NCBI RefSeq assembly: GCF_009730915.1 | Contig: NC_052477.1 | Location: 496,001-560,000 of the forward strand | Reading direction: 5' to 3' | DNA: 64,000 nucleotides | DNA from: Dioscorea cayenensis subsp. rotundata | Taxonomy: Eukaryota > Streptophyta > Magnoliopsida > Dioscoreales > Dioscoreaceae | Shown here: piece after piece, positions 1,859 through 64,000 of the stretch | Position numbering within the stretch: position 1 is the stretch's first letter | How the letters are laid out: every line of letters starts with the position of its first letter | Notes under the pieces: model-generated | Seen by the model: the letters and a program-made list of their open reading frames with translations, nothing else | What the model was told of the DNA's origin: nothing | Databases searched by the model: none | Position numbers and translations under genes: made by a program

Positions 1859-2126
1859 GAAAGTCAGTTATTTTTATTTTTTATTTTTTGAATAATAGAC
1901 GACAAGTGTCTTTTTTTTTTATGAATATAAACAGTACCAAACAACAATGGAACCCGGATGTACAATATATATACAGTATGAAAATAGTATAGGAATCCCG
2001 GGTGAACAGTATATGAACAGTACATGGAACAGTACTGTTGGGGGAGAGATTTGAACCCATGACCTCCCCCTTACACTTTGGTGTCATACCATTGGGCTAT
2101 CCAATGGTTGACGAAAGTCAGTTATT
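1859..2126 (-). mobile_element. tRNA-derived SINE with perfect 14-bp target-site duplications
   Basis: The element occupies about 1873-2112 on the minus strand and is flanked by identical copies of GAAAGTCAGTTATT at 1859-1872 and 2113-2126. Reading the minus strand, an A box (TAGCCCAATGGTA, 2099-2087) is followed by a B box (GGTTCAAATCTC, 2057-2046). The body has repeated ACTGTTCA-type motifs, and an A-rich tail corresponds to the T-run at 1911-1920 and the T-rich stretch at 1871-1889. Head, tail and duplications all fit an RNA polymerase III transcript inserted by target-primed reverse transcription. A diverged relative lies at 49151-49282. Confidence 0.85.
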
Positions 2127-39683: not shown

Positions 39684-40868
39684 TTCTGCAGGTAGCTCTG
39701 GCTGTTGCCCTCATTACAGGCCCAAATAAACGCCCGGTCATCTAGCAAGACCACTCTCGCCATCACTCTGTCGATCCTAATATATTTGTAAAGTCTGGTT
39801 TTTGTGACATGAGACTCTCGTCCTGACGGTGCCAGGCTTTGCATGGACGTTGTAATATTTACTTTATCAGCTGGCATTACTAAGCGCCGAGGCAAGCAAA
39901 AACGTCTGTCGTAAATCCTGTGGTACTTCAGGGTCATATCAGCAATCCAGGTCCTTTGGTTTGCTCTGCAGTCTACCAACACTCTTTCTCGGCGGCAATG
40001 AGACAGTCGTCTGATGTTGATCAAGAGATTTCTTAGTAAAGTTTTATCGTCTGGCCACTATTAAGTATTAACATGAGCAAATACGTGCAGCAACAGTCAA
40101 ATGTTCCCAAAGTATAGGTGAATGTGAAACAGTATTCGTTGACGCTGTGTTCCTAGACGTGTGGTGCAGTCTCTTTGTTGGCCTTGCGCATGTCTGCTGA
40201 GTTGCTGGCGAAAGCCAATAAGTCGCTTTTATGCTTAAGCACTTCGCTTTTAAAAATCATTGTCAGACAATTTCTTGCAGAAAATTGAACGAAAAGTTCA
40301 GTATACGCGCTCTTTTGTGAACCGCCGAGAAGTGCTTTTCTCAAAAAGCACTTTTTAAAAGCTCTTTTACGATCGTGGTGATTACTAAAATACTCCACGT
40401 AACCTTTTTATAAATTTTCTCTCATCCTTCATAGCCATGACTTCTCCAATGAATTATAATTAATATAATAATAATAATAATTATAATTAATATCATAATA
40501 TATTAATTTATTATTATTTTATTATAGTGCTTTATTATAATTAAATACTAATATCTACAGTAACTTAAACGAAACTCAATAAACGCTTCATTTTAAGAAT
40601 TTGCCACTCCTAAAAGCTCTTTTAAAAATCTCCATCCAAACAATTTATATATAAAAAGGCTTTTCTTTTAAGTTATCCAAACATAAAATACTAAAAAACA
40701 CTTAACTTACTCTTAAAAACACTTAAAAAATGTTTCTAAATAAAAACCTCAAAACTCAACTCTTTATTTATCACTTTTAGAAGGTTTTATTTTTATTTTT
40801 ATTTATTTTTTTATAACCTGAAAGAGCATTATTATTTTTTAAAACCATATATCATTATGGATTATAAT
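39684..40868. other. RDR6 3' UTR and AT-rich DNA up to the gap
   Basis: From about 40200 the DNA has repeated AAGCACTT/AAGTGCTTTT and AAAAGCTCTTTT motifs in both orientations (40230-40375 and 40610-40790) around a very AT-rich core. This looks like a MITE with long imperfect inverted ends, but I could not set borders. No gene found. Confidence 0.4.
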
Positions 40869-41868
40869 NNNNNNNNNNNNNNNNNNNNNNNNNNNNNNNN
40901 NNNNNNNNNNNNNNNNNNNNNNNNNNNNNNNNNNNNNNNNNNNNNNNNNNNNNNNNNNNNNNNNNNNNNNNNNNNNNNNNNNNNNNNNNNNNNNNNNNNN
41001 NNNNNNNNNNNNNNNNNNNNNNNNNNNNNNNNNNNNNNNNNNNNNNNNNNNNNNNNNNNNNNNNNNNNNNNNNNNNNNNNNNNNNNNNNNNNNNNNNNNN
41101 NNNNNNNNNNNNNNNNNNNNNNNNNNNNNNNNNNNNNNNNNNNNNNNNNNNNNNNNNNNNNNNNNNNNNNNNNNNNNNNNNNNNNNNNNNNNNNNNNNNN
41201 NNNNNNNNNNNNNNNNNNNNNNNNNNNNNNNNNNNNNNNNNNNNNNNNNNNNNNNNNNNNNNNNNNNNNNNNNNNNNNNNNNNNNNNNNNNNNNNNNNNN
41301 NNNNNNNNNNNNNNNNNNNNNNNNNNNNNNNNNNNNNNNNNNNNNNNNNNNNNNNNNNNNNNNNNNNNNNNNNNNNNNNNNNNNNNNNNNNNNNNNNNNN
41401 NNNNNNNNNNNNNNNNNNNNNNNNNNNNNNNNNNNNNNNNNNNNNNNNNNNNNNNNNNNNNNNNNNNNNNNNNNNNNNNNNNNNNNNNNNNNNNNNNNNN
41501 NNNNNNNNNNNNNNNNNNNNNNNNNNNNNNNNNNNNNNNNNNNNNNNNNNNNNNNNNNNNNNNNNNNNNNNNNNNNNNNNNNNNNNNNNNNNNNNNNNNN
41601 NNNNNNNNNNNNNNNNNNNNNNNNNNNNNNNNNNNNNNNNNNNNNNNNNNNNNNNNNNNNNNNNNNNNNNNNNNNNNNNNNNNNNNNNNNNNNNNNNNNN
41701 NNNNNNNNNNNNNNNNNNNNNNNNNNNNNNNNNNNNNNNNNNNNNNNNNNNNNNNNNNNNNNNNNNNNNNNNNNNNNNNNNNNNNNNNNNNNNNNNNNNN
41801 NNNNNNNNNNNNNNNNNNNNNNNNNNNNNNNNNNNNNNNNNNNNNNNNNNNNNNNNNNNNNNNNNNNN
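40869..41868. other. Assembly gap (1000 N)
   Basis: Exactly 1000 undetermined bases, the usual placeholder for a gap of unknown size between joined contigs. Open frames across it are meaningless. Confidence 0.99.
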
Positions 41869-42902: not shown

Positions 42903-45358
42903 CTAAAATCCTAGGAAGGCACATTGCTTTCTCGCATGCTCGGGGATCAGCTTCACCAGAGTCTCCATTGGCACTCCTTTCAGCTCTGGTCATTATCAAA
43001 ATTTAGGTGCTTTGAGTACATAATGTAAGATTATATCTGATTTAACATTGCGTGGTGTTGATATTGAAACTAACCATGTTGCTTGAAATTAAAGAGTGGT
43101 GGAAGAAAACGTCCGTTCGGCAAACGGGTGTTTGGATCCCGAAGCTCATCGAAGAATGGATGAATCAAAGCTTCCATCTGAATCAGAAGAAAAGCTGATT
43201 CTCACTTTCTTTGTACAAGACCGATTATTAGATACCCAGTTGCTAAAAATACTCACTGCAGTGGATACATAAGTGTGGTGAATATTGAAGAAGTCTAGAC
43301 ACCAGGTCCACAGCTTCTGGTGGCATTCGTTTTGTGGAAGATCTAACAAGATAAGAAATTTCTTGTGTTTAAGATATCGGAACTATGCAACATGGTATAA
43401 TAGAACAGATGCACTCAAAATAATACCTTGTGCCATGGATGAGCCTTAATTTGCGGGAACTTGAATTCTGTGTAATTTGGATTCATACACTTAATTTCCT
43501 CTCTTGTTGGTGTACCTAAAACCTGCAAATCGACGAATATGAATCAATTTAAGTATAAACATAACGGAAGTAGTATTTTTATTGGAATTAAGACTAGTTT
43601 CAGTAAGAACAAGTAGAGCACCTTGATAATTTCAACGAGCTGGTCTACTCCACTCTCACCGGGAAAGAGAGGCTGTCGAGAAAGAATTAGAGGTATGAAC
43701 AAATCTGAGCAAGACTATACTTTAAAAGCTTATATTAATGAGGCAGTGACAGACAGAAACTTGACCTGTCCAAGCATGAGTTCGGCAAGTACACAGCCAC
43801 CAGACCAGATGTCAATTGCTGTGGTATATTCAGATAGCTACCAAATATGAGCTCAGGGGCCCTGTAATACCTAGAACAAATGTATGATATATTCGACTCG
43901 CCTTTTTACCTAACAAAAAGAAATATAGAAGACATCAGCAAAAAGATAACAGAACAAGGCCAATAGACTAACATGGGGTGGAAACTGCAGATGTACCAGG
44001 ACTTTCGCACTTCCAAAGTGCCATCAGTTTAAGCTGGTGAGTATGAGGATTAACCTATCACAGAACAGGAGATGAGTGTTTATAATCTTTGAAAGCAATA
44101 AATAAATAAACAAATAAAATTGAAATGGGAAGCATCTAAATAAGTAAAACAAATGAAGTCAATTTCCCAAAGATGTACGCGAATCAAACGACTAGATGAA
44201 GATCATAGGCATAAGAATACCAGAAGGTTTTGCGGCTTGATGTCTCTGTGGCACACCCCAATGCTACCATGAATATAAGCTAAGGCTCTGAATATCTGTT
44301 TAAATAAATCAAAATAGAATCAGAACATTTGCCTCACAGAAAATTCTAATAGGATGAGAAAATGGAACAAAGAAATTATTCCAACAAAAGTTACAAAATA
44401 AAGAAGAAATAGCAAGATCAGGCCGAAATTCTCACCTGGTAAGTATAAAGCTTCACATATATCGGTGGCATCCGTTGATTCATCTTGTTGTAGTGTTTAA
44501 CCACCACGATGAGCGGTTTCTGGTACATACTCTAGAACCAAGTTAAGGTACAATTCATCCTTCTCAGTCGTTGAAAAAGAAGCAATGCTTCAGGAAACTA
44601 CATTTGGATGGTCAAGAAGACGCATTGTCTGCAGCTCTCGGTTCTTGTACCTCTTGTCTTGAAGAACTTTCTTTATTGCAACTGTTTCACCAGTCTCAAG
44701 ACATTTTGCCTGAATAACCGAGATTTTAGTGATTAAAAACTTTGCCCCATCATCTAGTATCCCCAGGCTTATCTTTCAATCACAAAAGAGGCATACGTAA
44801 AATAATTAGCCAGTGGACCAAAATACTTAGAAGCTAACCTGAAACACAACTCCAAAAGATCCTTGCCCAACAGTACGCTCAGCCATGTAGCTAATGGTCT
44901 GCAAACAGAGTAAAATTTTTCAACAATCAAGAAACAATACTTGTAACAAAGAACACGGCACATTCAACAATTAGTATGATTAGCATTTTTCAACAAAAGA
45001 AAAGTAATGAAAACTAGAGTCAATTGAGCAAGATTTCTTATCACGTCAAGAAAAAAATAATTAACCTATACCCTGCTTTGGCTGACCATTTCTACCCTCC
45101 GATGGTTGTTACAATTATATGACCAGTCTCTGTCCCATTCCCAGTCACTACCGTCGCCTCTAATTCCTAAATCAACAAACAAACCAAATACCAGATATTT
45201 AAACATTTGTCAGATACAAAGAAATCTTCAATTCAACCCTCGTGCAGACATTATACCTTATCATCTCTAATTTTCATGTCATTCATTTGATCAGGAAGTT
45301 TGTCAACAGCAGCGTTATTTCTCAACCCCAATGAGGGCACCACATTAACTGAAGCCAT
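42903..45358 (-). CDS. GSK3/shaggy-like protein kinase (clade I type), many small indels
   Basis: About twelve exons on the minus strand: 45358-45257, 45166-45072, 44898-44839, 44709-44436, 44295-44221, 44054-about 43985, 43870-43766, 43672-43622, 43522-43427, 43342-about 43255, about 43163-43083, about 42987-42903. Start [12 protein letters not shown] and IRDDKE suit the ASK-alpha/gamma/epsilon group. Landmarks: [13 protein letters not shown] loop, VAIKK lysine, CHRDIKPQN catalytic loop, [33 protein letters not shown], end PEHARKQC. Exons 1, 3, 5, 8 and 9 are clean. Single-base gains or losses interrupt exon 2 (GGAGGG before AGAAAT), exon 4 (three places) and exon 10 (CACAAAACG). The DFG/activation-loop exon is scrambled and lacks the KGEPNIS part. 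The protein sequence is otherwise almost that of an active kinase, so either sequence errors or a very young pseudogene. Family members act in brassinosteroid and stress signalling. Confidence 0.85.
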
Positions 45359-46480
45359 CCACTGAAACTAGGGATCTATAACAGAACGCATGGCATAAGA
45401 ACTCTTCTCAAAATGAAGCCATTCACAGCCTGTTAAAAATAAGAGACAAAGGGAGGTTTTAGTAGACATAAACACATAAAACTGATATACTCATTATTTT
45501 CAGGGAAAAATAAAATATATAGGATTATAAAACTGCGTTGCTATCTCATCTACACTGAAAAAGGAATTCTTTCATAACTTTAAAAATGCTAAGGAAGCAA
45601 ATATTTCAACCTACAAAAAAGAATTATCACATCAGAACCATTGAGCAAACTAGCAACCACTAAGTAGAGGATGTTTTAGTTGAAAAAACAAAAAGAAACA
45701 GTTTTACAAAACCACCATCTTGTGCTTGCAAATGGGAAGGAAAAACCCACACACACCACTAATTTATAAAAAATAAAAATAAAAAAGAACTCTAATTAAT
45801 TTTCAGAAGATTAACCAAACAAACCAAAGGACAAGAAAACCACTTGGCAACACAACTAATACAATCTAAAAGGAAAGCTTTTCCTCGTTAGGGAAAAGAG
45901 CTTACAACCCTAGAACTTCAAGATCTACAAGTTTCCATCCGAAAGACCAAACAAAACCCAAAGTTTCATTTTTTCCACAATTATACGAACAAAAGCCAGC
46001 AAAAACAAACCCAGGGAAGACTAACAGACTAAGTTCATATCTTCCCAATCCTAAAATATACAAAGAAAAAAACCTAAAACACGAAAAAGATCATAAGTTT
46101 CCTAGAACCAACATCAAAACCGGGGAAAATCACAGCAATCCACAGATCCACACATCAAACAACAACCAAACCCAATGCACTGCCCGATCTCCATCAAAAC
46201 CCCAACTTTCACCCACCTCTATCCACAAATCCACAACCAACCCCAAAAACCATCAAAAATACAGTACTACCTAACCTCAAAGATCCAGCACGTCCTCAGA
46301 TCACCACCAAAAAACTTCAAATAAATCGCGTCCAGAGCATAAACACCGTTGCCTTGCGATCCTATCAACGTTTAAATCAAGCGAGAGAAAAAGCGAAAGA
46401 GAAGAGAAAACGAAAGCAAGGGGCGAAAAGCAGCAAAGAGAGGGTTGTGGTTTCTATTCTCTGCTTTTTATTGTGAATTT
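45359..46480 (-). promoter_or_regulatory. 5' leader and leader intron of the GSK3-like gene
   Basis: The second leader exon begins at 45429 after the acceptor TTTTTAACAG. The first leader exon ends near 46276 (GAG|GTTAGG), giving an intron of about 846 bp. The first exon extends to about 46480 and is CT-rich on the minus strand. A tiny upstream frame, ATG GCT TCA TTT TGA (45422-45408), precedes the main ATG. The whole leader is homologous to the RPAP2 leader at 56281-57180: 46168-46239 and 56888-56959 match at 62 of 72 ungapped positions. Confidence 0.65.
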
Positions 46481-49150
46481 TTTTTTTATAATTTATTTAT
46501 TTATTTATTCATTTATTTCCTTTTTTTTAATATAATATATATATTATAAATAAATAAATAAATAAATAAATAAAAAGGTGAAAACTTTGGTTTGTAGGCA
46601 GTCAAAGTAGTCGCTCTTTACTCTCCATTTGGATTTGAATCCATGTTCCGTTGACCAGTCAAACTCCGCCCGCCCTTTTCTTGTCGTTTTCCCTTTTTTC
46701 ACTTTCAACCCTGTAAAATGCATTAATTAATAACAATATTCGATGTTATTGTTAACATTCAAGTTTTTCTTTGCATACTGTATAAAAAAAATTTTGGGGT
46801 ATTTATTAAAAAATTATTTTAAAAAAATTATTTATAAGTATGGAAAGCAAAGACCATGTCAAACATGGTATAATGTGTTCAATGTAATGGGGACAAATCA
46901 CATCAAAATTCTCAATGAACACATGTTATTATTATATTAGGACAAAATTTTAATTGAATTGATAAGATCTATGCATTAAAATTCCACTTCTCCATGAAAT
47001 TTCATTGCTTGATTTTATTGGTCCAAACAAACCAGTCAGCCATGTATGAAGGAATTAATCAACATTTTGAACTTATCAACAGCCATGTATTTGATGCATT
47101 TGAAGTTAATTAAGATTAAGAAAAGTTAATCAAAGTGTTAATCAACGTTAGCAATTTCCTAGATATTGCATAAGAGTTTTTAGCATGTCATATCTCACCA
47201 AACAGAAAAAAAAAATCTTTGACTTTTTGCAACTAAAGTTGGATCAAGATTGACAAATGGCACATCACTTGATATTACTTGTTTATTTTTCTTGGATATG
47301 ATTCAATTAGTCATCTAATCTGTTTAATTAGTGTTCATCTTGTCAAATTAATATGAGAAATTGTCAGTTACAAGCATTATTATTTCTGTTGTTGCTGTTG
47401 TTTTCAGCAACTCAAGATCAAATTCATTTGAAGTTGATTGATAAACCAAAAACATGTGAATTTGTAATCACTGTTAATTAGATTTTTTTTTTCCTTATAG
47501 TTCTGATTACGGATGAATTCAATTGAATATCTTTGATGAGATTGGGTTAATTTCGAGCTCCGCTAAATGTTGTTCCAAAACATTTTCAAGTCACTTCCGG
47601 AAAGTTTTTGATCATGATAGAGTTAAATTGTAAAATTCAATCGCCACGGTTGAAAGAAACCTCGAGTTTTTTTTGCACTTGCGTCAATAAAACGGGAAGC
47701 TAAACTCTAGCATAAATCTCGACTAACACCCCGATCTTCCAACCTATGAATATCTACTACGGCAGTTATTTTCAAGGTAACACAGGCTTTTTCTATTTTG
47801 TTATTTTATCCATCTCCAGTGGATCCTTTTTATTTTATTTAATTCCTTTTTCTATAGATATTTGTTACAACTATCTCATTTATTGTTTTGTAGTTTTGTA
47901 ATCATACAGTATTGATTTTAAATTTTTAATAAAATTATAATTTATCTATTTTTAATTATTATTTTAACTTGATAATAAAAATAGATCCATAAACTAAAAA
48001 TAATTGCTATGAAGCTAACATTTTTCCGAAGTTATGTGGGTGGATGAAATAAGAAACATACGCAAATATAATCAATAATCAATTGAAAGTTTTTAAAGTT
48101 TAAGTAACAGAGAATTAAGTTTGGGTTTTTTTGTTTGTGCACTCCACTCTACAGAGAGTTTAATGCTTGCACTCTCAGATTTCATTTTAGTTTGAAAACA
48201 ATACTTAAATTAAAGAAATCAGACAAACAAACAAACATCAAATCAAGATTTGGTAATGAAATATTATTAATTCAACTTTTCATAAATTTAACTTAAAAAT
48301 AAACAGTCAAATTCCATTCTGTAGATTGCCAAATAGTCCCTTTTTGTATAAATAATTTATTTTTAGTCCATGTGGGTCACCTCTTAATCATTTTTCATGA
48401 AATCTGATTATTAACAAAAAAAAAAAAATTTAAAAAACAAATGAATGGAATTAAAAAAACTGAGAAATTAATTGTGGAAGCTCAAAAATATTTATTTTCT
48501 TATTTAATTATTCACCAATAAATCAATTTCTCTATTTTTTTATAATCTATTTAAATCTCACCAACTTTTTTTAGTGCTAAATAATGGAAGTCTGATTGGG
48601 CACCAATTGATACAAATGGAAACAATATTCTCAAGAACGGAGCTAAAATAGAAGGCATCAAAGCATCATCCATTAATAATGTTCCAATGATTGAGACCTT
48701 TTAAATCTAATTAATTTTTTAATCTCAAGAATTATCCAAATCTTAATTAATCCACTAAACTTTAGAATAATCAAACTCTCTTATAGTTTCTAAACTGAGA
48801 ATATTCGTCAAAGTTTAATGAATGCTTCTTTGAACACTATATCAATTGAATCATGCTTTAAATTAAAGTGTAAATAAAGATAGAAATTAATTATTAAAAA
48901 TTAATAGTATACGGATCAATAATTGAGAACACACGCAATAAAAAAAGTGCATAAATTATAGTCATGGGCATCCGGACCACACCAAAGATCCAATTATGTA
49001 TTTATTTATTTATTTTATGAATGAGTGATAAATGCCCTAAATTATAAAAAATATAGATAAATGCGGAGGCATATCAATTTATAGTAATTTATTTGTCTTT
49101 TTAGAAAATCCTCCATCATGCAACTTTGGATAAAAATACTATTTTTTTCA
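46481..49150. other. AT-rich intergenic DNA
   Basis: A (TAAA)n tract lies near 46548-46575, in the promoter of the kinase gene. The rest is AT-rich with no domain-bearing frame on either strand. No repeat family recognised before the SINE copy at 49151. Confidence 0.6.
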
Positions 49151-49282
49151 TAAAAAATTCACACCCAGATATAAACAGTATTGGACCCGAGTATTATATA
49201 AATAGTATAATAACATATTATATAATAAAAGATTCTAATCCTTACACTCTTGTGTCATACCTATTTAACGGTTAATATAAGT
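49151..49282 (-). mobile_element. Diverged SINE, same family as 1873-2112
   Basis: Reading the minus strand, GGTATGACAC.A.AGTGTAAGG (49264-49241), a decayed B-box region, CGGGTCCAATACTG and a TTTATAT.TGGGTGTGA tail follow the order of the first element. The A and B boxes are degraded and no target duplication is clear, so it is the older copy. Confidence 0.65.
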
Positions 49283-49393
49283 TTTTTAAATAAAAAAACA
49301 AAATGAAAATACAACTATTTCATTAAATAATTATTCTAGCTTTAAATAATTACAATCTTAAGGATCAAAACGTAATTTTAAGAAAAATTTGCC

Positions 49394-49599
49394 GACGTGG
49401 TTCCTGTGATAAATAAATAAATATAAAACGAGGGTGTTTTTAGCAAAGAAGGGAACGGTTGGAAGCCTCGCGCCGCAACTGTTGCCGTATGACGTGTCAG
49501 CATCTGGACCGCATGGCGTATACGCATGGGCGGGAATAGTTTGATGACTGACACGTGGCGGTAATCTTAGCCGGTTAATCTCAACTTTCAGTATATAAA
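49394..49599 (+). promoter_or_regulatory. PP2C promoter with three ACGT-core motifs and TATA box
   Basis: ACGTGG at 49395-49400, TGACGTGTCA at 49490-49499 and GACACGTGGC at 49550-49559 are ABRE/G-box-like sites for bZIP factors. TATATAAA at 49592-49599 lies about 200 bases before the ATG. Spacing and clustering suggest ABA or stress control, which is inference. Confidence 0.65.
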
Positions 49600-49794
49600 C
49601 TCCTCCAAAGCTGATCGATTTGTCTAATTTCTTCACTTCCGTGTCGACTTCCAACCACTTCCCGGAAAACCAAAGCATTAAGAAGAGAAACCCTAGAAAA
49701 AGCAAGAAGAGAAGGAAACCCTAGTTTTGGGATCGAATTTGGCGTCAAGAAGAGGATTGTTGTTGAGATTTTGAGGATTGAGATTGAGATCAAG

Positions 49795-51732
49795 ATGGTG
49801 GCTGGGCCGAACTTGGTTCATCAGAGCATGGCGGTTCTTGATGTGCAGTATCGGTGTGTCGCGAAGGGCGCTGAGGAGATGGTTGATATCTCAACGGCGG
49901 CGGCGGCGGCGACGGTGGTGGTGACGCCGCCTGGTTCTCCGGTTTTCCGTCCGGCGTCGGAGTTGGTGAGTTTCCTGGTGACTTTGGGGGTTTTTGGTGT
50001 TTTTGAGAATTAGATTTATTTTTGGAGATTCTTGTGGGTATGGTTTTTTTGAGTACTTTTTGTTCAAAAAGTTTTGATCTTTATGTTGTTAATTGGATAA
50101 GGATCCGGGTTCTTGCTTCCTGATTCGTTGTTCCTGTTTGGATGTGATTGCTTTGTGTTTTTATAGCTATTGATTTTGGTAATTTTACTTGATTTATCAT
50201 TTAATTAAAGCAAATGATTGTTCATTAGGTATTATTGCTTCTGTATTTAGATCTAAATTTTGCTTCGTTATTGCATTTCGCTTATTGTGTGCTTCTATGG
50301 GCTGCTATTTAATTGTGATATTTTTCAGATGTGTTGTTGTTTTGTTTGTATCGTTAGTTTGTGAATTGGACTTTGAATATGTGCTAAACATATAGATATT
50401 CACTTGTTGATTCAGGATATGAGAGAGTCAGATGCTATTCCAGATGTGGCTTTGGAGGTGAATGTTCTTCCATTTGTGCCGAGCATCCGTTCCGGTAGCT
50501 ATACGGACATTGGACCTCGGAGATTCATGGAAGACGAGCATATTTGTATTGATGATCTTTCGACTCATATGGGTTCATTGTTCAAGTGTCCTACACCTAG
50601 TGCCTTCTATGGGGTATGATGAATTTTTCGGTTGCTTTATTTGCAAACTATTTGTTCGTTCTGTTTGTCGTAATGTTTTTTGGCTTTGTGGTTTAGGTGT
50701 TTGATGGTCATGGAGGCCCGGATGCAGCTGCCTTCATAAGAAGGCATGCAATCAGGTTCTTCTTTGAAGACACAGGCTTCCCGCAATCATCGCTGAGGTT
50801 GATGATGTCTTTTTTTGGAGGGTGTTGAGAACTCTGTGCGGAAGGCATACCTTGTCGCTGATCTAGCTTTGGCTGATGAGTGCACTGTTAGTAAATCATC
50901 TGGGACTACGGTGCTCACCGCATTAGTGCTTGGAAGGTGAGTGTGCATTGTTTGATGATGCCTTTCTGTGGAAAACTATTCTAATTCAATAATCAGTCTT
51001 TAACTTCTATCCCTGTCCTAATGGCAATAAATAACTTGAACAAACATTGCTAATGATCTATCCCAAGTAAAATATTTTTGTCATTCAATATGATTAGCCT
51101 CTCTAAATCATAGCTCCTCTCACTGATTCTCTTGTAAATCATTGGCTGCAGGCTTTTGTTGGTTGCTAACGCAGGGGGATTGTCGAGCAGTCCTTTGTCG
51201 GAAAGGTGAAGCCGTGGACATGTCACAAGATCACAGACCCATTCATGCTGCCGAGCACCAGAGGGTCCTGGAATCCGGGGGTTACATTGATGACGGGTAC
51301 CTGAATGGTGTTCTTTCTGTAAGCCGAGCCCTCGGTGACTGGGACTTAAAGCTGCCTCCGGGCACCCCCTCACCGCTCATCGCAGAGCCCGAGTTCAGGC
51401 AGCAATTACTCACTGAAGATGATGAGTTTCTAATCATCGGGTGTGATGGTATCTGGGATGTCATGTCAAGCCAACACGCTGTCAGCATTGTACGCAAAGG
51501 CCTTCGGCGGCATGATAATCCTGAACAATGTGCAAGAGAACTCGTCATGGAGGCTCTGAGGCTCAACACTTTCGACAACCTCACGGTGATCATTATATGC
51601 TTCACTAGCGAGCAACAGGATTCTTCCCCATCGCGCAATCGCAGGGAGGCACCGATGTTACGGTGCTGTAGCCTCTCTACCGAGGCATTATGCAATCTGA
51701 GGAGCTGGCTCGACATTGATCGGGGCGATTAA
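49795..51732 (+). CDS. Protein phosphatase 2C (PPM family), frame interrupted
   Basis: Four coding exons: 49795-49965, 50416-50613, 50697-50936, 51152-51732, with GT-AG junctions. A variable N-terminus with an Ala run and [10 protein letters not shown] precedes the catalytic domain. Landmarks: [18 protein letters not shown] (metal-binding acidic residues), [56 protein letters not shown] and [10 protein letters not shown]. The layout resembles the plant group around AtPP2C22/27/49, not clade A. PP2Cs are monomeric Mg/Mn-dependent Ser/Thr phosphatases. Three small shifts break the frame: one base between QSS and EVDDV in exon 3 (near 50795), a run of seven T shortly after (near 50810), and one extra G in the AGGGGGA run at the start of exon 4 (near 51172). 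Everything around them reads as a normal PP2C, so sequence error is likely. Confidence 0.88.
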
Positions 51733-52541
51733 ATAGAGACATTGTCATGTGTGTAACTTGTGTTGTACATAATGTACTGATAATAAGTCGACGTTGTTTC
51801 GTTTCTTCGGCTGCTTGTCAGCAGTCTCCAGTTTTGTAGGAGTGTTATATCATGTCTTTGTTGTTCCTTGAGTATTTGTTCATGGCTGTGTAGAGATTGT
51901 TTAACATTATTATGTCTTTTATCATTATTTCTTCCAGCTGAGATCTAGTTTACGTGTTTTACTAGAATTGCAAATATTTAAGAATTTTTCTAAGTTTCAA
52001 CTCTAGTTTGGTGTAGAGGTTGATGTGTTTCAAGGTTGAAAAATCTAGAGGCAAGTCAGCTGATATTTCTAGAAAGCATTTATTTTAGGCAATACTTTGA
52101 CCATCTGCTTATTGGAGCACTCTTTTTTCAACTAGAACTCTGAAGATGTTTCATGAAAATTCTCAGATTGGGGGCATCTGGAAAGCAATGTAATAAAATA
52201 CTGTTCCAAGTGGCAGGCAAAAGAATGGTTCTTTCTGAAAGATGATAAACTAATAGGACAGCAAAGATAGGCAATAACTCCCACCAGCTCTTGCAAAGTC
52301 AATTTCAATAGATGAAGGTCATCAACAAATAAATGCTAACTTGTAATGCTTTCTCTTCAACCAAAATAATATACATAATTCAGTGATACCACATATGTTT
52401 ATTTTTTGTGTCCATGTTACAAAGATGATGTAGAATTTTGAGAAGGATATGTACATGGTCCATTTAGGGAAAAAGTAAATAACATATAGAGTCGCGAAGA
52501 ACATTGATCTGTTTCAGCCTCTCGTATGAAGCCATCGCCTA
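51733..52541. other. Convergent 3' ends of PP2C and RPAP2 genes
   Basis: About 800 bp that must hold both 3' UTRs. No repeat or further gene recognised. Confidence 0.6.
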
Positions 52542-55500
52542 TCATTGGGTCTGTGAGTTTGTTTGGGGCACTCGACCCAGAGGGATTATAAGATCTACCA
52601 TGGTTTTGTATTCCTCTGAAGTGATCTTAGCAGGGTTTAGCACCTGGATTACCGAAGATTTCATGTCAGACAAGAAACAAGCTTTGCCAAACAAGAGACA
52701 CAAAGGTGAAAGCAAATACATATATACATACATATATATATATATTACATTCATAGGCATTAAAGATAGATAACAATGATATATGCAGAACAAAGTGCTT
52801 CTATACTTCACGACAACAAGCTACTGTGACAATACTCAATTATTTTGGCATTTGAATAGCTAGGAAAAAACAAGATGGAGAATGATTCATCACGCATGGG
52901 CCCTGTGAACCTAAATTTATCAAGCATCTCGCTAAATGCATCATATGAGAACATTTGGCATCAAAACAATATTGTTTAGCATTCACCTAAACTTACAAAT
53001 TGTTAGTGATATCTTGATTTGGAGCTTTTCTTTGTTAGTATAAAAATGACGAGGTGCAAATAATTAGAGTTTATAAAGCAATAGATGGCATGGGAAAGCA
53101 GCATGTAAACATCCTGAATTTTGAAAAAGTGTGCATCAAAATTACTGCCCTGAATAAAAATTTGATGATGGAATCATGGAACTTAATTACATATTGACAT
53201 CTTTCATGGATTCTCATTAAATGGAAAAAGTAAAAAAGATGGAGTTTTAAAAGAACACCTTATGCAATAGTGTATTCCTGCTGGCCATATGCTGAGCAAG
53301 AGCTGGAAGCCTGTGCAAAGATAAGGCCTCAAGAAATAAAAGAACAATCACATGCCATTGTTTTGTTCTGAAGGCCGGCACAGCCTCGATGAGAGACATT
53401 GTATCAAGTAATTGTCCCTGAAACCAAAGGAAAAGAGTTAATACGTGTGGGATTTCAATAATCAAAGCCATAAATCAGGTCCAAAGCCATGATCACATAC
53501 ATCTGCATGTTAGTTGACATTACCCAAACATTGTGACTAGCAACATAAAAGATCAAGAATGTTTTCCTGCATGTAACTATAGTATGACATCCATGGAGAA
53601 AAGTAAAATCCATCACGTCCATCTAACATGCAAGATGAGCTACACCTCAACATTTCTATTGAGATAGGTAGATTGATAGCCAAATACGCACGCCTGGGCA
53701 ATTACTCATGTGAGGAAATAAACTTATATAAAAAGTCAAAACCACAAAAAAAAACTACAATCCGCACCTGTAAGATATAGGTTTTGAAAGTCACATGACA
53801 TGCAGATGTATAACAACAAAAATAGCAAAAAAGTCATTTAAAAAAATAACATTTCATATATACAGAGAAATAGGTAATACAGGAACAAACTGGCTAGAGA
53901 ACCTGGGCGCATACCACAGCTTTCTCTAGAGAGGAAACTGGCAATGATAATCTGAGATCCATAACAAGCGCAGGTATGGCACGACCAACACAAATATCAA
54001 GAGTTTGTCTGATCTCAGAAGACTTGCCATCTTGAAGGATAATCTTTCGTGGATACTCCCTTCCATTTACAGTAAGAAAATCTTCATGGGAACTTTCATT
54101 GAACCCATAAATGTAGGCTATAGAAGAACTTGTTATCCATCCAAAAAGTGCCATCCACATCGTTGCAAATGATGACAACTAAAGAAGGACATGTGACCTT
54201 AAATAAGTATACAAGGAGTAACCTAAAAAAATCCAAAGTGACCTTTCTACTCACAGTCAGTTTAAAACCCTCAGGTGGAGTATCATGCCACGAATCCTCA
54301 ACTTCAAACATATCAGTATCAAGAAGCACAGGCTTTGTAGGCCATTTAACACGTCCTCGATCAAGTTCAAACATTTCCTCATCTTCCTCGATGCCCCCTT
54401 TTTCATTATTTTGCAGTTGTGGCAGGATAATGATTCCAGCTTCAGAAGCTATAAGAGATATAACAAATGCATGTCACCAAGCAGTCAAACCATCAACCCA
54501 GTTCTCCTTTTTCTATTGTATGTCAGCGCAACAAAAAATATCCCAAATTATAAATATAAAAAGGGCAATAAAAAGAAGAAACACATGTACCGGCATCTGT
54601 GGCATCTGAAGTTCCTGAGGCAACAGTCTCAGCTGCCCTGATTAAAGCAGCAGCACAAGCCTCGGCAGAAGCAAGCCTCAAATCCTCATCAGCATCATCG
54701 TGTGATACTTGTGCATTGCTACTGCCTCCATGGTCAGCATCCTTCTTTTCTGGAGCTTTATAAGTTTCATCTGCCCAAGTAACAGTCTTTCCATCCTTCG
54801 ATCCACCACTCTTCAAGGAAGACTTCAACACAGCTCCATTTGACACTGTTTCCTTCTCCAAGTGCAACCTCTCTTCCAACTCCTTACCCAACTGCTCTGA
54901 GAGATCCTCAAGCACAACAGAATGCTTATTAGGAGGGGTTGCTTTTGACTGTTCACAAACAATTGCAGCCCTCTTAATCTCCTCTTCAGCCTTGCATGCG
55001 TTAACCTTTTTCATTGCCTTTCTGTTCCGAGTTTTACCAGAAGTTCTTTCTCTGGGAGAATTTTTCTCTTCAATTGCCAGATTTTCCAATTGTTTAGCAA
55101 TCATATTTGAAATATCTTGCTGATGTACAGAAGACTTATCGGATTGAGGCACAGATAACTCGTTCTCCATGATTAGACAACTTGTAAATCCCATCTCACC
55201 ATTACCAGCATCATCCACCATCTTTGTGGATTCATCTTCAGACATATATTTAGCCCCTGCAATGCAGTAGCAAGCTCACTCCTGAATTCACAGAGCAAAC
55301 CCACAAGGAAACACATATATGAAAAGGAATAAACCAACTATAGCCCCTAAATTCCCAATTCTATAGATATAATACTTGCCAACAATTTTCAACAACAATC
55401 ACTGCTAATTCAACATTAAAACAATTGCTTAACAGTTTCACTAACTTTCCACAGAACCTGCTAAAAATTCCCGACATTTTCTACAATAACTACACCTGCA

Positions 55501-56280
55501 CGAGATTGAAGCTGAAATTGAAATAAAACAACTTAATCATCATAACTTTTCAACAATCACTACAAATTCAACCATAAAAACCATTGCTTCACAGTTTCAC
55601 CAAATTTTCACAGAAGATGCTAAAAGTTTTAGTTTTCCCAACAAAAATTACACCAACAAAGCAACTGGAATAACCACAATTAATGCACAAAACAAGAATA
55701 AAAAGCAAGGATTTCTACCTTGTTTTCTGTCTCGCAGGGGAACATAGCCTTCAATGGCATCAGATGGTCCCAACCATTCTTCCATGGAGACATCACCATT
55801 ACCAGCCTGCTCCTTCTCCTTAATCTTCAAATCCCCAATCCCCAACCCTTTTTCTGCAGGCAAGTCCTCATCTTTACCCAACCCAAACACCCTCAAAACC
55901 CCATCCACCTTCAAGCTCACATCACCCACTCTCTCCCTCTCCAAGCTCTCTGCAAATGCACGGCTAGAAACTAAGCAAGCTTGGGAGCAGTACTTATAAG
56001 TTTCCTCAAGATCATACACTTTGTGCTCCCGGAGTGCAATCCGGTACCGACCCCGACGCCGCTGGGAGTCAGCAGTGGAGGACAAAGCTTTGGTGCAAAG
56101 AGGATGACCGCACAGTCGGGCCAAGGACCGTTCTACAACAACATCATCATAATCCGGCTGAGAGAGGAGAGTGCCGGCAGCAAGAAGCTGGCCCTCGGAG
56201 GTGGCAGCGCCATCAAGCAATGCTAACTGGATCCGGTGCACAGCATCAGCTATGGTAGCAGAATGCGAGGGCACCGCCAT
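52542..56280 (-). CDS. RPAP2/RTR1-type RNA polymerase II CTD phosphatase homolog
   Basis: Six coding exons on the minus strand: 56280-55719, 55256-54591, 54448-54255, 54178-53915, 53417-53259, 52643-52542. Total 1947 bases, 648 residues, all GT-AG and in frame. The ATG at 56280 (MAVPSHS) is chosen 13 bases after an acceptor. Residues 1-190 carry the RTR1 domain with the zinc cysteines in CGHPLC and [18 protein letters not shown] stretch follows, then a long acidic, Ser/Lys-rich region (exon 2). A conserved C-terminal region holds [30 protein letters not shown] and [10 protein letters not shown]. Family members remove Ser5 phosphate from the Pol II tail and help move Pol II into the nucleus; the Arabidopsis homolog is known as RIMA (established knowledge). 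No damage is seen. The 5' leader is shared with the GSK3-like gene. Confidence 0.9.
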
Positions 56281-57180
56281 CACTGATCGAATCCTAAGAA
56301 ATGTATCAGGGTTAGACTAGTTTATATACTTGAACGTTAATTGTAGTTATCCCCTGGAAAATAATAACACATGGTTGGAGAGTTATCTTGTGTTGCAAAT
56401 GAAAAGGAAAAATTCATCTAAACCATCCTAGACTGAGAAAAGGAATAAGAACAACCATCCTTGAATTTTCCCAAGAAAAAATATGCAGCTAAAAAAAAGT
56501 GATTCTAAACGAAAACCACACCCAACCATCCAAAGAACAAGAAAATCACTAAGCAACACAACTAATACATCAAAAAAAGAACGTCTAGTTCTAAATTTCT
56601 TGTTTTCAGTGAATTTACAGTTAAAGAGGCTGAACGGCCCCAACAAACACAAAACCCTAGAACATCCAAATCTACAAATTCATCCAACAAGCCAACAAAA
56701 CCCAAAGTTCCAATTTTTCCATTAATTATAGGAACAAGACCCGCCAAAAACAACCCAAACTACATTCACATCTATCTTCTCCCGAAAATCATACAAAGAG
56801 AAACCCGAAAACACCAAAAAGATCACAACATACCTAAAACCACCGAAATTGACAACAATTCGCATATCCACACATTAAAAAGACCCCAAGCCCAATGCAC
56901 TGCCTGATCTCTACCAAAACTCAAACTTTCATCCACCTATATCCAGAAATCCGCAACCAAACCCTAATAACTACAGTGAAAAACACAATAATCCAAACCT
57001 TAGATATCCAGACGTACAAGACTTCGCCTCTCAGATCACCACCGAAATTTGCAGAGAAATCTCATCTAGAGGGTAAACAGCAACGCCCTGGCGATTCTGA
57101 TGACGTTTGGATCGAGACCTCGAGATCTCGAGATCGAGAGAGAGAGAGGAAAACCCTAGGAAGGAAAAACCTTGGAAGGG
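56281..57180 (-). promoter_or_regulatory. RPAP2 leader exon and leader intron, homologous to the GSK3 leader
   Basis: The acceptor TTTCTTAG ends at 56294. The first leader exon ends near 56999 (AAG|GTTTGG), giving an intron of about 705 bp, and extends to about 57180. Its order of motifs follows the GSK3 leader at 45.8-46.4 kb: AGCAACACAACTAATACA, CCCTAGAAC, ACAAAACCCAAAGTT, CCCAATGCACTGCC and TCAGATCACCACC, with about 86 percent identity in a 72-bp ungapped stretch (56888-56959). TGGGCC (57215-57220) and TGGCCC (57253-57258), site II-like motifs of housekeeping promoters, lie just upstream. Confidence 0.7.
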
Positions 57181-59951
57181 TCGCAGTTTCTTTCGCTTTT
57201 AAAGCGACAGTAACTGGGCCGGCACTGCCCGCTTCCCAGCCCGCCAAGCGTGTGGCCCGTTTATATTTATTTATTTATTTCAATTATATATATACTAAAA
57301 TAGATGGTTTTTTTTTAAAAAAAAATTCCCCCGCTCATCCTCACAGATGATGTATTGCATATATATATATACACAAAACTTTTTTAAATTACAAAATTTA
57401 AAATTAATTAATTAATTTTATTTTTTACAATAAATGGAGAGAGAAGGACAAAAAGTTGATCATGTTATAAGTTGATTTTTGAGGGTAAAGGTGTATAGGT
57501 CGATATGAATTCTAAGGTGTATAAAAACAATATTTTTTTAGGTATAAGTAGAGAAATTATTTTTTTCAAAGGATCGGGACTGTAATTTTTCATATCATAA
57601 GTGCATTTTTTAAAAAAAATGTTAAAAAAAAAAAATGTAATACATACTTATAAGCTCATTACTTTTTTTTTCTATGGTAAATGCACATTTTTAAAGTGGT
57701 AATTCTTTACAAAAAGAAATTTTTTTAATTTTTTTAAGCTTTTTTAATTTGTCATTGACCCATAGATCGGAAAGCCGTCTCGTAAAATTATATTTACATA
57801 ATAATAATAATAATTCTATCATTATTATAATAAATTAATTAAGAAAAAAAATATAATTTCTTGCCCCAGCCCCCTAGAGTGTTGGATAGGGTTTGTTTTT
57901 AGCATTTTACATATATTTTTATTGTATAAATTATTTATGATAGCTCAACATAAAAATTTAGATTGTGAGACCCAATAAATTTATCATTATCATATCACAT
58001 ATATTCAGTTTTAAGTAAATGGATAGCTTTAAAATTATACAAATTGATTGATTATTACAGCGCCCAATCAAAGCATCGAGCTACAGTGTTTTCATATTAG
58101 TTGGCCTATACAAGTTATTTATATTAATACAAATATAATATATATATATATAAATATTTCACAGAAAAATATTAGCTTTATGTTTTAATTTGGTCCACAT
58201 TTATACATGGATATATGTAACGTGTCATAAGCGTTTTGAAAAAGTCAGAGTTGAACTAATTCAAATTAATGATATTTATAATAAATAAATTAAATAGTTT
58301 ATAAGATGAGAATATAAACTAAAAACATAAAATTTCTTCCTGAATTAAAACTTCAATAGGCTCATCCAAACCATCAAACTAGTGGTGACAGCTATAATAA
58401 CATGGAAAATTCAAAATAAAAACATACGATTATTTCAGTTATTAACTGTTTTTTTTAGTGATTATATTTTAACTTCTGTCTTGGATTGCTACCTTGATAT
58501 CTGCCAATGGCTGTTGGATTAAGTCTAAACAAACAGCATGTTACTAAAATAAAGGATCAAGCTAATTCGGTTGATTGATAACAAGCACACTGTTGTTATT
58601 CAAGTGGTTGGATTGAGAAATTGCCTATCAGATTTAAGCTCTTAATCTTTGGTCATGTTTTTTGGTGGGAATAATTCCCATATGAACAAAAAATTTTCAA
58701 TTGTTTTGATTTAAAGACTAGTGAGTTAATTGTGCTAGAACAATGAATGGTGTATTCTTTGTCATATAACATGCTGCAAACGATCTATGTTTGCCGGATA
58801 TGGGGTTTGTGGATAGTCTAAACATCACATTTCTGGTCATAAATACCATACTCAATAACCTGTATGTGAGTGAATAATGCCAAACTATCCAGATGAACAA
58901 TACCAAAGTTAATCGCAATAAGGTGATATAAGTCGAGTATTTCTTGCAGTCTTTTCCTTGGTTTTGAATGGAATATTTTGTTCTTTCGAGTGGCATCTAT
59001 GTGTCTTTCCTTTCGATCCTAAATGGCTGTGATTCTTCATGGTGTCCAAACTCATTCCTAGAGCTCAGAATTTCTAGGGCTACTCTATAGTACGTGAAAA
59101 CTAGTTTGATCCCATTCTTTTCAATTCATTGAACACAAATAAAACATACGGTGATATAGTGTTTGATGTCTCTAGTGCATTTCTACACTTCCCTTGCTAT
59201 GCAGTTTACATTCTACTTGTGAGGGCAAACCATTCACATTTCCCTAAATGTTTCTGCAAAACTATGTAAGTTCATACTGTACTGAATTTTGGAAACATGT
59301 AATTGAAGAGCATTGTGAATGTGTGTGAAGTTTGTGAAAAAAGACTAACAGAAGTTCAGTATCTCCACACATGAGAACCTAGCAAACCAGCTAAGTGAGA
59401 AGCAAGCATTATTATAAAAAAACTCAACAAAATTATGAGCCCTAACAGACACCATCATGGGATTCAATGCAATGCAAAGAAGCATAAGCCCAAATTGACA
59501 ACTCATTACCATAACAAAACTATGACACCATTGACCATTGAACTTCAACACACACACACACACACACACCCCATAATTTACTCTATTGAATCCAATTTGC
59601 TTCAGCATGATAAACAATTAAAGCAGTTCAATTGATAAACACATACCAATAAAAACTTCATCTCATCAACTCCATTTTTTTCACAGTAATCATAAACTAA
59701 GCTGTTTCTAAGTCATATTATTCCAAAAGCACAACAACAAGAACACAAAACCTTAAAAACATTATCATAACCCTTGCAAATAATTAAAAGTATCATCCAT
59801 AACAATAACTGATAACCAAAACAGAGAAATTTAAAGATTAAAACAAAGGACAAAATTCATAAAAACCTAAAAAATCAGGTTGCTATTGCCAGTTTCTCAG
59901 CATCAATACAAACAACCCAAAAGCTATAAACTTTCATTTGGAAAACAAGAA
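57181..59951. other. AT-rich intergenic DNA
   Basis: Contains TA and (CA)n tracts (about 57359-57372, 58138-58152, 59551-59570) and no recognisable coding sequence. The last 100-300 bases are probably the 3' UTR of the ubiquitin fusion gene (minus strand). Confidence 0.6.
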
Positions 59952-61197
<1,246 letters not shown>

Positions 61198-63154
61198 TTA
61201 AAGGTCACAAGTTAACCAAAGTGGCTCATCAAATTGCCCACGTAACTTGACACCCTCATTCTCAACCAAACTAAGTGACCCAATATCCAGGACCCCACCA
61301 CCCGAGTACCATGCTGGCGTCCCATTCTCAAAACAGTTACATGTCAGCCTCTTCACCCCGGTCCCATCCACGCGTACAATGTACAAGTCCCCGTACGGCT
61401 GAAACTGATTAGGCACCGACACAGGCTCCGCCACGACCCCACCCAAGTTACCAGTAAAAAGCAGCCACCTGGAGTCCCCACTGAAGCACACGTGGTTGAT
61501 CCTCTCCCTATCCACGTCATCCGACCCTTCCTCACCCGCCACGTGTACCCGTCGCAACCCCTTCCCGTCCGGCCCCACGAGATACACACTGAACACGGCC
61601 TGGTCCTCCGGGCAGTGACGGTTCGATGAGAACGCGATAAGCTTACCGTCCGGTGACCAACACGGCATCGTATCCACCCAATCACCGTCTGTTAACCGCC
61701 GTATCCCCTCCCCGTTTCCCGTTTCCCCTTCAACGGGGTCAACGATGTACAAGTTCTTCTGCCCCGTTCTGCCGGAACGGAAAACCAAAAACTTTCCGTC
61801 AGGCGAGCACGAGGGAAACGCATTGTTCCCCGTTTCCCCTCTCGTGAGTATCTTCACCTCCACTGGAACTTCATCACGACCGTCCACGAGATCATCGAGA
61901 CTGAACTTGATCCGGGCGATCTGCACCGTTGCTTTGACGGACTCGAAGATGGGCCCCAGTGAAGTGTAGATTACTCCCTTCTCGGTTGGGCTCCACGTGG
62001 TGTAGAACGCCATGGAGTCTTTCAGAAGGGTCCATCCTTTAGAGCCGTCGGATTTGAGGAGCATTAATCCTGGGCCGTCCGTTAAATTGCCGTTGATGGC
62101 GATGAGGTCACCGTCGGGAGAGAATGCTGGGAAGGTGGCGGAGAGGCGGAGCATTTTAAGAGATTTCACCGGGGACGTGACTGGTTGGAGATGGGGCGTG
62201 ACTGAGTCACCTGAGCGCTGACTCGCCTCGGAATCGGTGGTAGCCGAGCCGAGTCGAATCGTGAGAGAAGAACGGGTTGTAATGGTGGAGCTTCGGGTTT
62301 ATAAGCTCGGTGACTTGGAGAAAGGTCTCCGATTCGAGATCGAAGATCTCGATTTGTGGAGTCCCTCCCTTGCGCCGCGTGGCGACGGCGAGCATTTTGC
62401 CGTCGTGGGTGGCCGCCGGCGTGAAGGCGTGCAGTCCTGGCGGTGTGATCCGACGTTCTTTGCCGGCGATGTCGAGATCCGCGGTCAGTTCCACACGGAA
62501 TACGCTCCACCAGCCATCATCGGCGACGCGGTGGAAGAACAGCGTCGAGTCGCCGGCCCACGCAGGCCATCCGGCTCGCCGGGTGATCACCGTCCGGGTG
62601 GATGGATCGGAGGCTCTGAACACCACGATCTCCGTCTCCAGCTCGCGAAAATCGCCCGGCCATGGCTTGGACCCATACGAAGCCACGGCGATCAGATCGC
62701 CGGATCGGGACAAGGCGGGGCTTAGATCGGCAGAATCCGGCGGAGTGAGCCGGACGGTATCGCCGGTGTCAAGCCGGGTTGAGTAGACGGCGGCCCAGCT
62801 CTTGAACCAAGACGAAGGCTTCTCATGGGCGGAGACGAAGTACAGACGATCACCTCGTATCGTTGGCCGATCCTGGAAGAGGCTCTCAGAGATCGCCGGC
62901 AGCGATTCAGTTTTCCCGTCCGGCGAACCTGTCCGGAAAAGCCGAGACGAGCCCGTTCGCTCGGAGACGAAGACGACGGCCTCGCCGCCATCATCGACGA
63001 ACTCGCCGTTGTAATTGACGGAGACGCCGTCAGTGTGTCGGAATTCCTCTAGAACTGAATCGGACCGGCAGTTAACGGTGACGGAGAAGACATCAAAGCC
63101 GTAGATTGGCAATCCAAGCGTGGAGAACGCGATGATCCCTTGCGGTTCTTCCAT
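61198..63154 (-). CDS. TolB-like beta-propeller protein, one frameshift
   Basis: An intronless gene on the minus strand in two frames that together give about 652 residues, the length I recall for the Arabidopsis TolB-related protein. It starts MEEPQGIIAFSTLG. WD40-like/DPP6-N-type propeller repeats recur with FSPDGD, WSPTEKG, CSPDGKFLVFRS and CWSPDGKLIAFSSNRH. It ends FDEPLWLTCDL. There is no signal peptide. The frame changes near 62217, where one extra base in GCGCTC separates GYHRFRGESA from SGDSVTPHL; dropping it would align fully with the family, so an error or a recent lesion is likely. Plant relatives are reported as stress-induced proteins of unknown biochemical role. The gene is GC-rich, in contrast to its flanks. 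Confidence 0.85.
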
Positions 63155-63190
63155 TTGGAGTGAGGTGTGTGTGTGGAGCTTGTGAGAGTG

Positions 63191-63200
63191 TTTTATAGCC
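63191..63200 (-). promoter_or_regulatory. TATA box of the TolB-like gene
   Basis: GGCTATAAAA on the minus strand, about 37 bases before the ATG, so the 5' UTR would be very short. No better TATA is seen nearby. Confidence 0.7.
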
Positions 63201-64000
63201 GCACATCTCGGGAGAGGTTTGATCTTATCTTGATCACAAACACGTTAGCTTATTCGCCGTCTTCATTCGTTTTCAGGTCACCTGCTCACCTTACTTTCTT
63301 GTTTCTTTAATTGGTTTATAATAATTATATAATTAATCTGTGTTTTCTTGCTTGATAGAGTACAAAAGCTGAGTTGGAGGAATCTCGTCATGGTTCAATG
63401 AGTTCACATTTGTTAGTCAAAATTAGATTTATTAAAATGCTAAAAACGTGACTTCCTCGTTACTTGGTTCGTTCTTAATCTTATCATTGTCGTCTAATTA
63501 TGCTTACAATTTATGTAGTTTTAATCCACATATTATTTTTTTTTTCTTCACTATTTGGTACAGTTTATGTTTAACCTTGCTAAGTAATCACCATAGTCGT
63601 GCACAGATTAAGAATTAATCATCAATGCAGAATTTGGATTTGAATTTAATATCTTTTTATTGTTTTTTTTGTTTTTAATAATAAAACCAACTACTGATAG
63701 TAGGCTACCGGTCTTTTAATGTAATTGTGATTTGTTATTGGATTAGTTCTATCAATATCAGTAATGCAAAATGCTGACTGACATGCCACTATTTTGTGAC
63801 TGATGGGTAGATAAAATTTCATTTATTAAGGTATTCATGAAAAGAATGACAAAGCTCACAAATTACACTTATTATATATTTCAGGGAAGAGCACCATGCA
63901 TGGGAGTTCATTCACCAATGCAGAGCACTGCCTTCCTGCAAACAACTTCAACAAAACCAAAAAGTATTGTAAGATAGACACTCATATTTATACTTGCATA
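63201..64000. other. Intergenic DNA at the window end
   Basis: The promoter of the TolB-like gene and AT-rich DNA. No further gene recognised. A following gene may begin beyond the window. Confidence 0.5.

Follow-up and report, generated by a model that had tools for sequence, protein, structure and literature searches.

A 5' leader shared by a GSK3-like kinase gene and an unrelated RPAP2 gene in yam

Genes of the region

The window is the whole stretch of 64,000 nucleotides that we have analysed. It has a GSK3-like kinase gene and an RPAP2 gene on the minus strand, each with a predicted intron in its 5' leader. A PP2C gene lies between them, divergent from the kinase (Table 1). An apparent duplicate of the region, with 97–98% identity, lies 404 kb away and includes the segment shared by both leaders. 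The first coding exon of RPAP2, used as a query, gave two matches, both in C7, which are the window and its duplicate; the genome duplication thus provides no outgroup for RPAP2. No Rfam family matches the window at gathering thresholds.

Table 1. Position of the features discussed in the text
Feature	Positions	Strand	Basis
GSK3-like kinase coding exons	43079–45358	-	sequence searches
Kinase leader intron, predicted (donor GAG/GTTAGG, acceptor AACAG/G)	45430–46275	-	sequence; donor within homology
Kinase leader carried by the CACTA family, greatest extent	45755–46419	-	search and alignment
Shared segment in the kinase gene (exon 1 in part, donor, leader intron for the most part)	45802–46395	-	blastn and alignments
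Kinase start-site region, weakly like RPAP2 57177–57200	46441–46468	-	shuffle test
Kinase proximal promoter, conserved with C12 paralog, unlike RPAP2	46576–46664	-	similarity and shuffles
PP2C gene, limits by eye	49640–51732	+	searches and by eye
RPAP2 gene body, 3' end rough	52500–56280	-	domain search and by eye
Rtr1/RPAP2 domain of RPAP2	within 55720–56280	-	domain search
RPAP2 leader intron, predicted (donor AAG/GTTTGG, acceptor TTAG/GAT)	56294–56998	-	sequence; donor from pairwise alignment
RPAP2 copy of the shared segment	56510–57125	-	blastn and alignments
Segment of about 60 bp in RPAP2 and four CACTA copies, lacking in the kinase leader and in the duplicate of that leader	56581–56645	-	multiple alignment
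RPAP2 start-site region, weakly like kinase 46441–46468	57177–57200	-	shuffle test

Similarity of the two leaders

An earlier note on this DNA had claimed that the two leaders are colinear and similar, at about 45.8–46.43 and 56.52–57.15 kb. Our comparison of 45000–47000 with 55800–57800 by blastn confirms it. Two blocks are found, colinear and in the same strand: 45907–46346 with 56653–57079 (72% identity in 458 columns, E = 5e-58) and about 45814–45863 with 56520–56569 (86% in 50 bp, E = 7e-12). In the whole segment 392 of 538 aligned positions are identical, with a JC divergence of 0.337. The alignment score is 483, as compared with a maximum of 151 among 200 dinucleotide shuffles. The block 46168–46239/56888–56959, with 62 identities in 72 positions, does exist, but its density of identities does not exceed chance (p = 0.16, 2000 permutations). 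It is unremarkable, since the core has 73% identity, and we reject the idea that it is specially conserved.

The homology takes in the donor and the greater part of both exon 1 and the leader intron. The donors had also been said to correspond. In the pairwise alignment a single column holds the first base of both introns (46275 and 56998, on the minus strand), but three multiple alignments place them in different columns, as the donor stretch is gappy there. The acceptor ends of the two introns, as read from the sequence, lie outside the homology. That of RPAP2 has no visible likeness to the acceptor end of the kinase.

Upstream of the leaders the situation is different. Homology of the proximal promoters is not supported: in the comparison of the kinase and RPAP2 upstream regions 108 of 1000 shuffles are equally good. 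The start-site regions show a weak match (6 of 1000 shuffles as good). The proposal that a promoter/leader segment was duplicated can be maintained, with C12 as outgroup, for exon 1, the donor and the intron, but not for the proximal promoter; the word promoter is too strong, as only a weak start-site region is shared in addition. No breakpoint signature of the copying was found.

The kinase paralog in C12

In C12 a GSK3 paralog and a divergent PP2C homolog are about 6 kb apart, the same arrangement found in the window. In its upstream region the leader was recovered by a profile search (E = 1.3e-9). It is the sole match among eight paralog upstream regions (the next value is 0.56, and the best one among the reversed sequences used as control is 0.087). 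Similarity with this paralog is also apparent on the acceptor side of the kinase leader intron and in the kinase proximal promoter (0 of 1000 shuffles as good). For the RPAP2 start region a similarity with C12 has no support, as 866 of 1000 shuffles are equally good.

We will call K the leader of the window kinase, R that of RPAP2 and C12 that of the kinase paralog. The alignment of K with C12 is distant, with 254 of 463 positions identical. In these 463 columns, which have letters for all three, K and R agree against C12 at 133 positions, K and C12 agree at 53, R and C12 at 45. In a maximum likelihood tree rooted on C12 together with its transposon copy, K groups with the CACTA copies described below and R stays outside; the support for the group of K and CACTA copies is only 84. 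Since the C12 paralog keeps both leader and promoter, and R is sister to K plus the CACTA copies, the leader belongs originally to the kinase. The alignments and the outgroup establish the homology, the direction and the extent of the copying, and identify the kinase as the donor of the RPAP2 leader. The duplication which separated K and C12 is most likely the delta genome duplication of yam.

Transposons which carry the leaders

The shared segment is found in at least eight further dispersed places among the matches listed. These loci are alike well beyond the leader, and their surroundings belong to a single CACTA transposon family; no free-standing copy of the leader appears among the same matches. 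We have read the ends of two of the eight copies, those in C5 and C2. The C5 copy has 14.4 kb (C5:13473536–13487952), with ends CACTACAAGAAAA and TTGTAGTG and TTG on both sides: it shows the CACTA...TAGTG terminal inverted repeats with a 3-bp target duplication. In the C2 copy, read by eye, one end is altered and TTA is found on both sides. Two ORFs of the C5 element contain DUF4218 (E = 7.8e-9) and DUF4216 (E = 1.2e-16), which are domains associated with CACTA-type transposase. The kinase leader lies between the terminal repeats, as a host piece does in Pack-TYPE elements, in an element which retains fragmentary ORFs related to transposase.

The best CACTA copy has a divergence of 0.064 JC from the kinase leader, as compared with 0.337 for RPAP2. 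A relative of the CACTA flank at C5:824 kb has a similarity which begins at the leader junction; its next 897 bp have no leader. Nothing in the C5 CACTA element matches the flanks of the RPAP2 leader (56291–56505 and 57131–57900).

The leader of the C12 paralog is carried by a second repeat family, distinct from CACTA. It is perhaps a PIF/Harbinger family, a group with GGCC-type ends beside TTA or TAA: by eye, some of five copies have a GGCCCTGTTTGG-type end beside one of these triplets. Neither its other end nor a transposase was found in the sequence examined. It does not match the flanks of the RPAP2 leader. Dispersed relatives are present for all four GSK3 upstream queries (K, C12, C6 and C19) and for none of two control regions of the window.

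The earlier note had considered that the shared segment might be a dispersed repeat. Such copies exist, but they are parts of CACTA elements, and in the tree they group with the kinase to the exclusion of RPAP2. Their presence does not make the leaders of the genes transposon-derived. Some caution is needed here: a leader which looks like a repeat may be the source of the repeat, not the reverse.

Origin of the RPAP2 leader

Our preferred reading, with a probability of about three in four, is that a leader native to the kinase was copied to RPAP2 after the K/C12 duplication and was captured by CACTA later. The shared segment would have been in its native state the 5' leader of the GSK3-like kinase. 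After the split of K and C12 a piece of about 0.6–0.7 kb would have been copied over a distance of 10.7 kb to the 5' end of RPAP2, with its orientation kept. Besides the donor it would comprise the larger part of leader exon 1 and of the leader intron, without the proximal promoter. In RPAP2 it now precedes an acceptor unrelated to that of the kinase, and then the start codon. The DNA upstream of RPAP2 is unlike the kinase promoter, so its own elements would likely drive the transcript. We infer from the sequence that this transcript would start in the kinase-derived leader, whose donor would splice to RPAP2's own acceptor. The capture of this kinase leader by a CACTA transposon, which then spread it, would be much later. 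As a result of gene conversion the RPAP2 copy could look younger than it is.

A captured kinase leader may have come to RPAP2 in an old element, of CACTA or another type, which has since decayed; its origin would be unchanged and only the vehicle would differ. Two repeat families do carry leaders, that of the kinase and that of C12. However no ends or sequence of either family are found beside the RPAP2 leader, and the kinase leader is much nearer to the best CACTA copy than to that of RPAP2. Such a delivery is a minor possibility. A more ambitious version supposes that the 5' leader of plant GSK3 genes is a portable regulatory module, repeatedly taken up by transposon families and brought to RPAP2 by an element, which would still work there. 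We find it highly unlikely on these sequences; if true, the expression of RPAP2, an RNA polymerase II factor, would be tied to that of the kinase. Independent insertion of a dispersed repeat into the 5' ends of both genes appears the least probable, in spite of the eight or more dispersed copies: these loci are parts of the CACTA family, the C12 paralog retains the leader with its promoter and acceptor side, and the leaderless relative of the flank begins at the junction.

The earlier note had also proposed a second kinase copy which lost its coding exons. A tandem copy of the whole gene, with its leader fused to RPAP2, would explain a homology restricted to the leader and in the same strand, but no remnant is found: kinase DNA has no match in 46601–64000, and in the window its peptides match only their own gene. 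We consider it unlikely. Finally, the likeness of the leaders might be older than the K/C12 duplication, and gene conversion across 10 kb might have maintained it. No RPAP2 on the C12 side was found in a genome search, which leaves room for conversion; the changes are balanced between both sides, as given by the counts above, and the segment shows no clear patchiness of identity (p = 0.06), which makes it quite improbable.

Comparison with known systems

By local duplication a new 5' leader or promoter can come to stand before a gene. The case of RPAP2 is similar, as the 5' end of a neighbour has been copied before an unrelated coding sequence. It differs in that donor and recipient genes both persist, and in that what they have in common is the leader exon with its intron, without the proximal promoter. 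A search of one open library found no earlier report of a leader shared by these two genes. It is a datable case in which an untranslated exon and an intron of one gene head an unrelated neighbour. Set against the published KS values of yams (0.064, 0.163 and 0.389; PMC9010478), the K–R divergence of 0.337 would predict this leader at RPAP2 in D. alata and D. dumetorum, would be borderline for D. zingiberensis, and would predict no such leader outside yams. The donor is known from an outgroup in a duplicated block, and the same sequence has been separately mobilised by transposons. Such a case allows one to test cleanly whether expression behaviour moves with a leader intron to another gene.

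The motifs TTNGATYTG and CGATT are characteristic of intron-mediated enhancement. A long leader intron is predicted near the start of both genes, like the 5'-UTR introns with this effect treated in PMC3095359 and PMC4225707, but neither intron (45435–46275 and 56294–57006) contains these motifs. In Pack-CACTA, as presented in PMC8903248 and PMC13317346, part of a host gene is enclosed by the two ends of a CACTA element, which multiplies it. The same transduplication is found in our CACTA family. The C5 element, with 14 kb and transposase remnants, is thus outside the classic Pack elements, which are non-autonomous; the copy in RPAP2 is the older one and has no element ends. The captured piece is here an untranslated exon with its leader intron.

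Homology of the two leaders

The leader regions of the GSK3-like kinase (45.8–46.4 kb) and of RPAP2 (56.5–57.1 kb) can be aligned, and the earlier note was right to call them colinear and similar: in columns limited to 45802–46395 of the kinase, 392 of 538 positions are identical (JC distance 0.337), and the alignment score is 483 against a maximum of 151 among 200 shuffles. The predicted splice donors, also said to correspond, share one column in the pairwise alignment but fall in different columns in the multiple alignments, which are gappy there. The proposed duplication of a promoter/leader segment holds for the leader, with a direction given by contig C12 (see below), but not for the proximal promoter, which the two genes do not have in common; nor do they have the acceptor end of the leader intron in common. 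The start-site stretch (46441–46468 and 57177–57200) has a match level equalled by 6 of 1000 shuffles and is only suggestive of a common start region.

Features of the region and dispersed copies
Feature	Position	Strand	Description
GSK3-like kinase		minus	Pkinase domain; top PDB hits: a serine/threonine kinase, GSK3-beta
PP2C gene	between kinase and RPAP2	plus	PF00481, E = 1.5e-4
RPAP2		minus	PF04181, E = 3.2e-21; PDB match human RPAP2
Ubiquitin/S27a gene	adjoins 60400–61100		identified by eye
C5 CACTA element with a copy of the kinase leader	C5		14,417 bp, flanked by a TTG target duplication; terminal sequences CACTACAAGAAAA / TTGTAGTG
Copies of the C12 leader	C15:8732055, C16:19350686, C18:20239120, C18:4716854, C4:9113557, C148:53727, C1511:38085, C8:20381098, C17:3174472		dispersed

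The duplicate region

The window occupies C7:496001–560000. Its positions 42340–64000, from the 3' part of the kinase rightwards to the window end, recur at C7:942119 to at least 964048, 403.8 kb away, with 96.6–98.3% identity; two stretches tested farther left do not match. Either the region was duplicated recently or the assembly contains two haplotypes that were left unmerged. The kinase coding exons (43079–45358, limits approximate) differ from the duplicate by 16 substitutions and 6 indel columns in about 1103, with the extra bases always in the window copy (6/6). By eye, the PP2C gene has apparent single-base frame shifts in homopolymers at 50780–51200. Together these look like long-read assembly error, or the decay of one copy. 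Close to where the duplicate ends on the left, and just past the 3' end of the kinase, there is a run of 1000 N (approximately 40868–41867).

Source of the leader

We compared the upstream DNA of eight other GSK3 loci, leaving out the weak C13 and C24 matches. A leader profile found one of the eight, on C12 (E = 1.3e-9); the next-best region had E = 0.56 and the best reversed control 0.087. Similarity of the kinase to the C12 promoter stretch was equalled by none of 1000 shuffles, and further similarity spans the acceptor to the first coding exons. At C12:369 kb the PP2C leader has a homolog as well (69%, E = 1.2e-13), which diverges from the kinase on C12, the same arrangement as in the window; the two kinase loci therefore look like block paralogs. 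PMC9010478 gives chromosomes 7 and 12 of D. alata as a pair, and D. alata and D. rotundata chromosomes as one to one. The C7/C12 pairing fits this, if contig numbers are chromosome numbers.

Of the 463 columns in which the kinase, RPAP2 and C12 leaders each have a letter, 133 unite kinase and RPAP2, against 53 and 45 for the other pairings. A maximum-likelihood tree (13 sequences, with five of the CACTA copies partial and the C2 copy left out) groups the kinase leader with its counterpart in the duplicate (support 86), the dispersed CACTA copies among themselves (80), and these two groups with each other (84); RPAP2 stays separate. From the C12 leader, the column counts and the tree, we take the leader to be native to the kinase and that of RPAP2 to be a copy. 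The distance between the kinase and the C5 CACTA copy is 0.064, so capture by the CACTA element came later than the copying to RPAP2. In the alignment about 60 bp are kept in RPAP2 and four CACTA copies and missing from the kinase leader and its counterpart in the duplicate, which suggests that the kinase lost them after the capture.

The kinase–RPAP2 distance lies between the median KS of D. alata versus D. dumetorum (0.163) and versus D. zingiberensis (0.389), and below that of the delta duplication (0.869), as published in PMC9010478; the age is approximate, because an intron distance is no synonymous-site distance and gene conversion may have acted.

Dispersed copies and the CACTA element

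In the genome (584.2 Mb, 2249 contigs) the query 46160–46440 has 12 places among the matches listed: the two leaders, their two counterparts in the duplicate and eight others, with 84–93% identity. The stretches compared cover all ten places outside the window. The eight loci are alike beyond the leader (many blocks of 81–99%, some short ones of 70–80%); their similarity to the kinase region 43001–47500 is confined to 45755–46419 (E up to 1e-6). By its ends, its target duplication and its ORFs with DUF4218 and DUF4216, the C5 copy is a CACTA element. Ends were read in the C5 and C2 copies only; C2 keeps just 85 bp of the leader segment, and C586 is a contig of 1.1 kb. A CACTA-flank query gave nine loci in the ten rows listed. 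At C5:824 kb similarity to the flank begins at the leader junction, and the leader is absent from the 897 bp past it: the leader is thus a discrete piece inside the element.

One CACTA copy has an ORF (L011:1785–2195, plus strand) that looks by eye like the first part of a PDR-type ABC transporter; a Pfam search gave no match. Window positions 1885–2112 match DNA adjoining the C5 element, outside its ends, at 89%: this is another repeat.

A second repeat family

The C12 leader has nine dispersed relatives of its own among the matches listed. The flank of another repeat family directly adjoins at least seven of them (40 of 283 candidates scored); the query came from one of the seven, which matches by construction. 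We found no similarity of this family to CACTA. Its single visible end, GGCCCTGTTTGG, adjoins TTA or TAA in some copies, which we take to resemble PIF/Harbinger elements; perhaps it belongs there. Window positions 26672–26764 match its C18 stretch at 75% and are another repeat.

Upstream regions of the C6 (L052:2100–3150) and C19 (L050:1900–2950) GSK3 genes have 6 and 23 rows of dispersed matches listed beyond self; for this upstream DNA, insertion of a transposon into the gene and capture are equally likely explanations. One C9 match to the C6 region unites two query parts, the roughly 100 bp between them missing. Among the matches listed, the control queries had no dispersed copies: the PP2C leader found itself, the duplicate and the C12 homolog, and 60400–61100 itself and the duplicate. 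Four queries set beside two controls do not establish a preference for GSK3 leaders.

How the copy may have reached RPAP2

The earlier note had offered a dispersed repeat as an alternative, and eight further places of the segment are indeed listed; but the CACTA copies group with the kinase, and the flanks of the RPAP2 copy contain neither C5 CACTA nor second-family sequence. On present evidence we do not regard the RPAP2 leader as transposon-derived. A second kinase copy with lost coding exons had also been proposed: we looked for a kinase remnant, by DNA in 46601–64000 and by peptide in the window, and found none. The copying would have been by local duplication or by a traceless element, and RPAP2 would use the copied exon and donor. 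Sequence comparison shows the origin, direction and extent of the RPAP2 copy: we regard the leader duplication as real and directional, followed by transposon capture of the donor gene's leader. In Arabidopsis SK11 and the RPAP2 homolog presumably adjoin; if so, the closeness of the two genes predates the copying.
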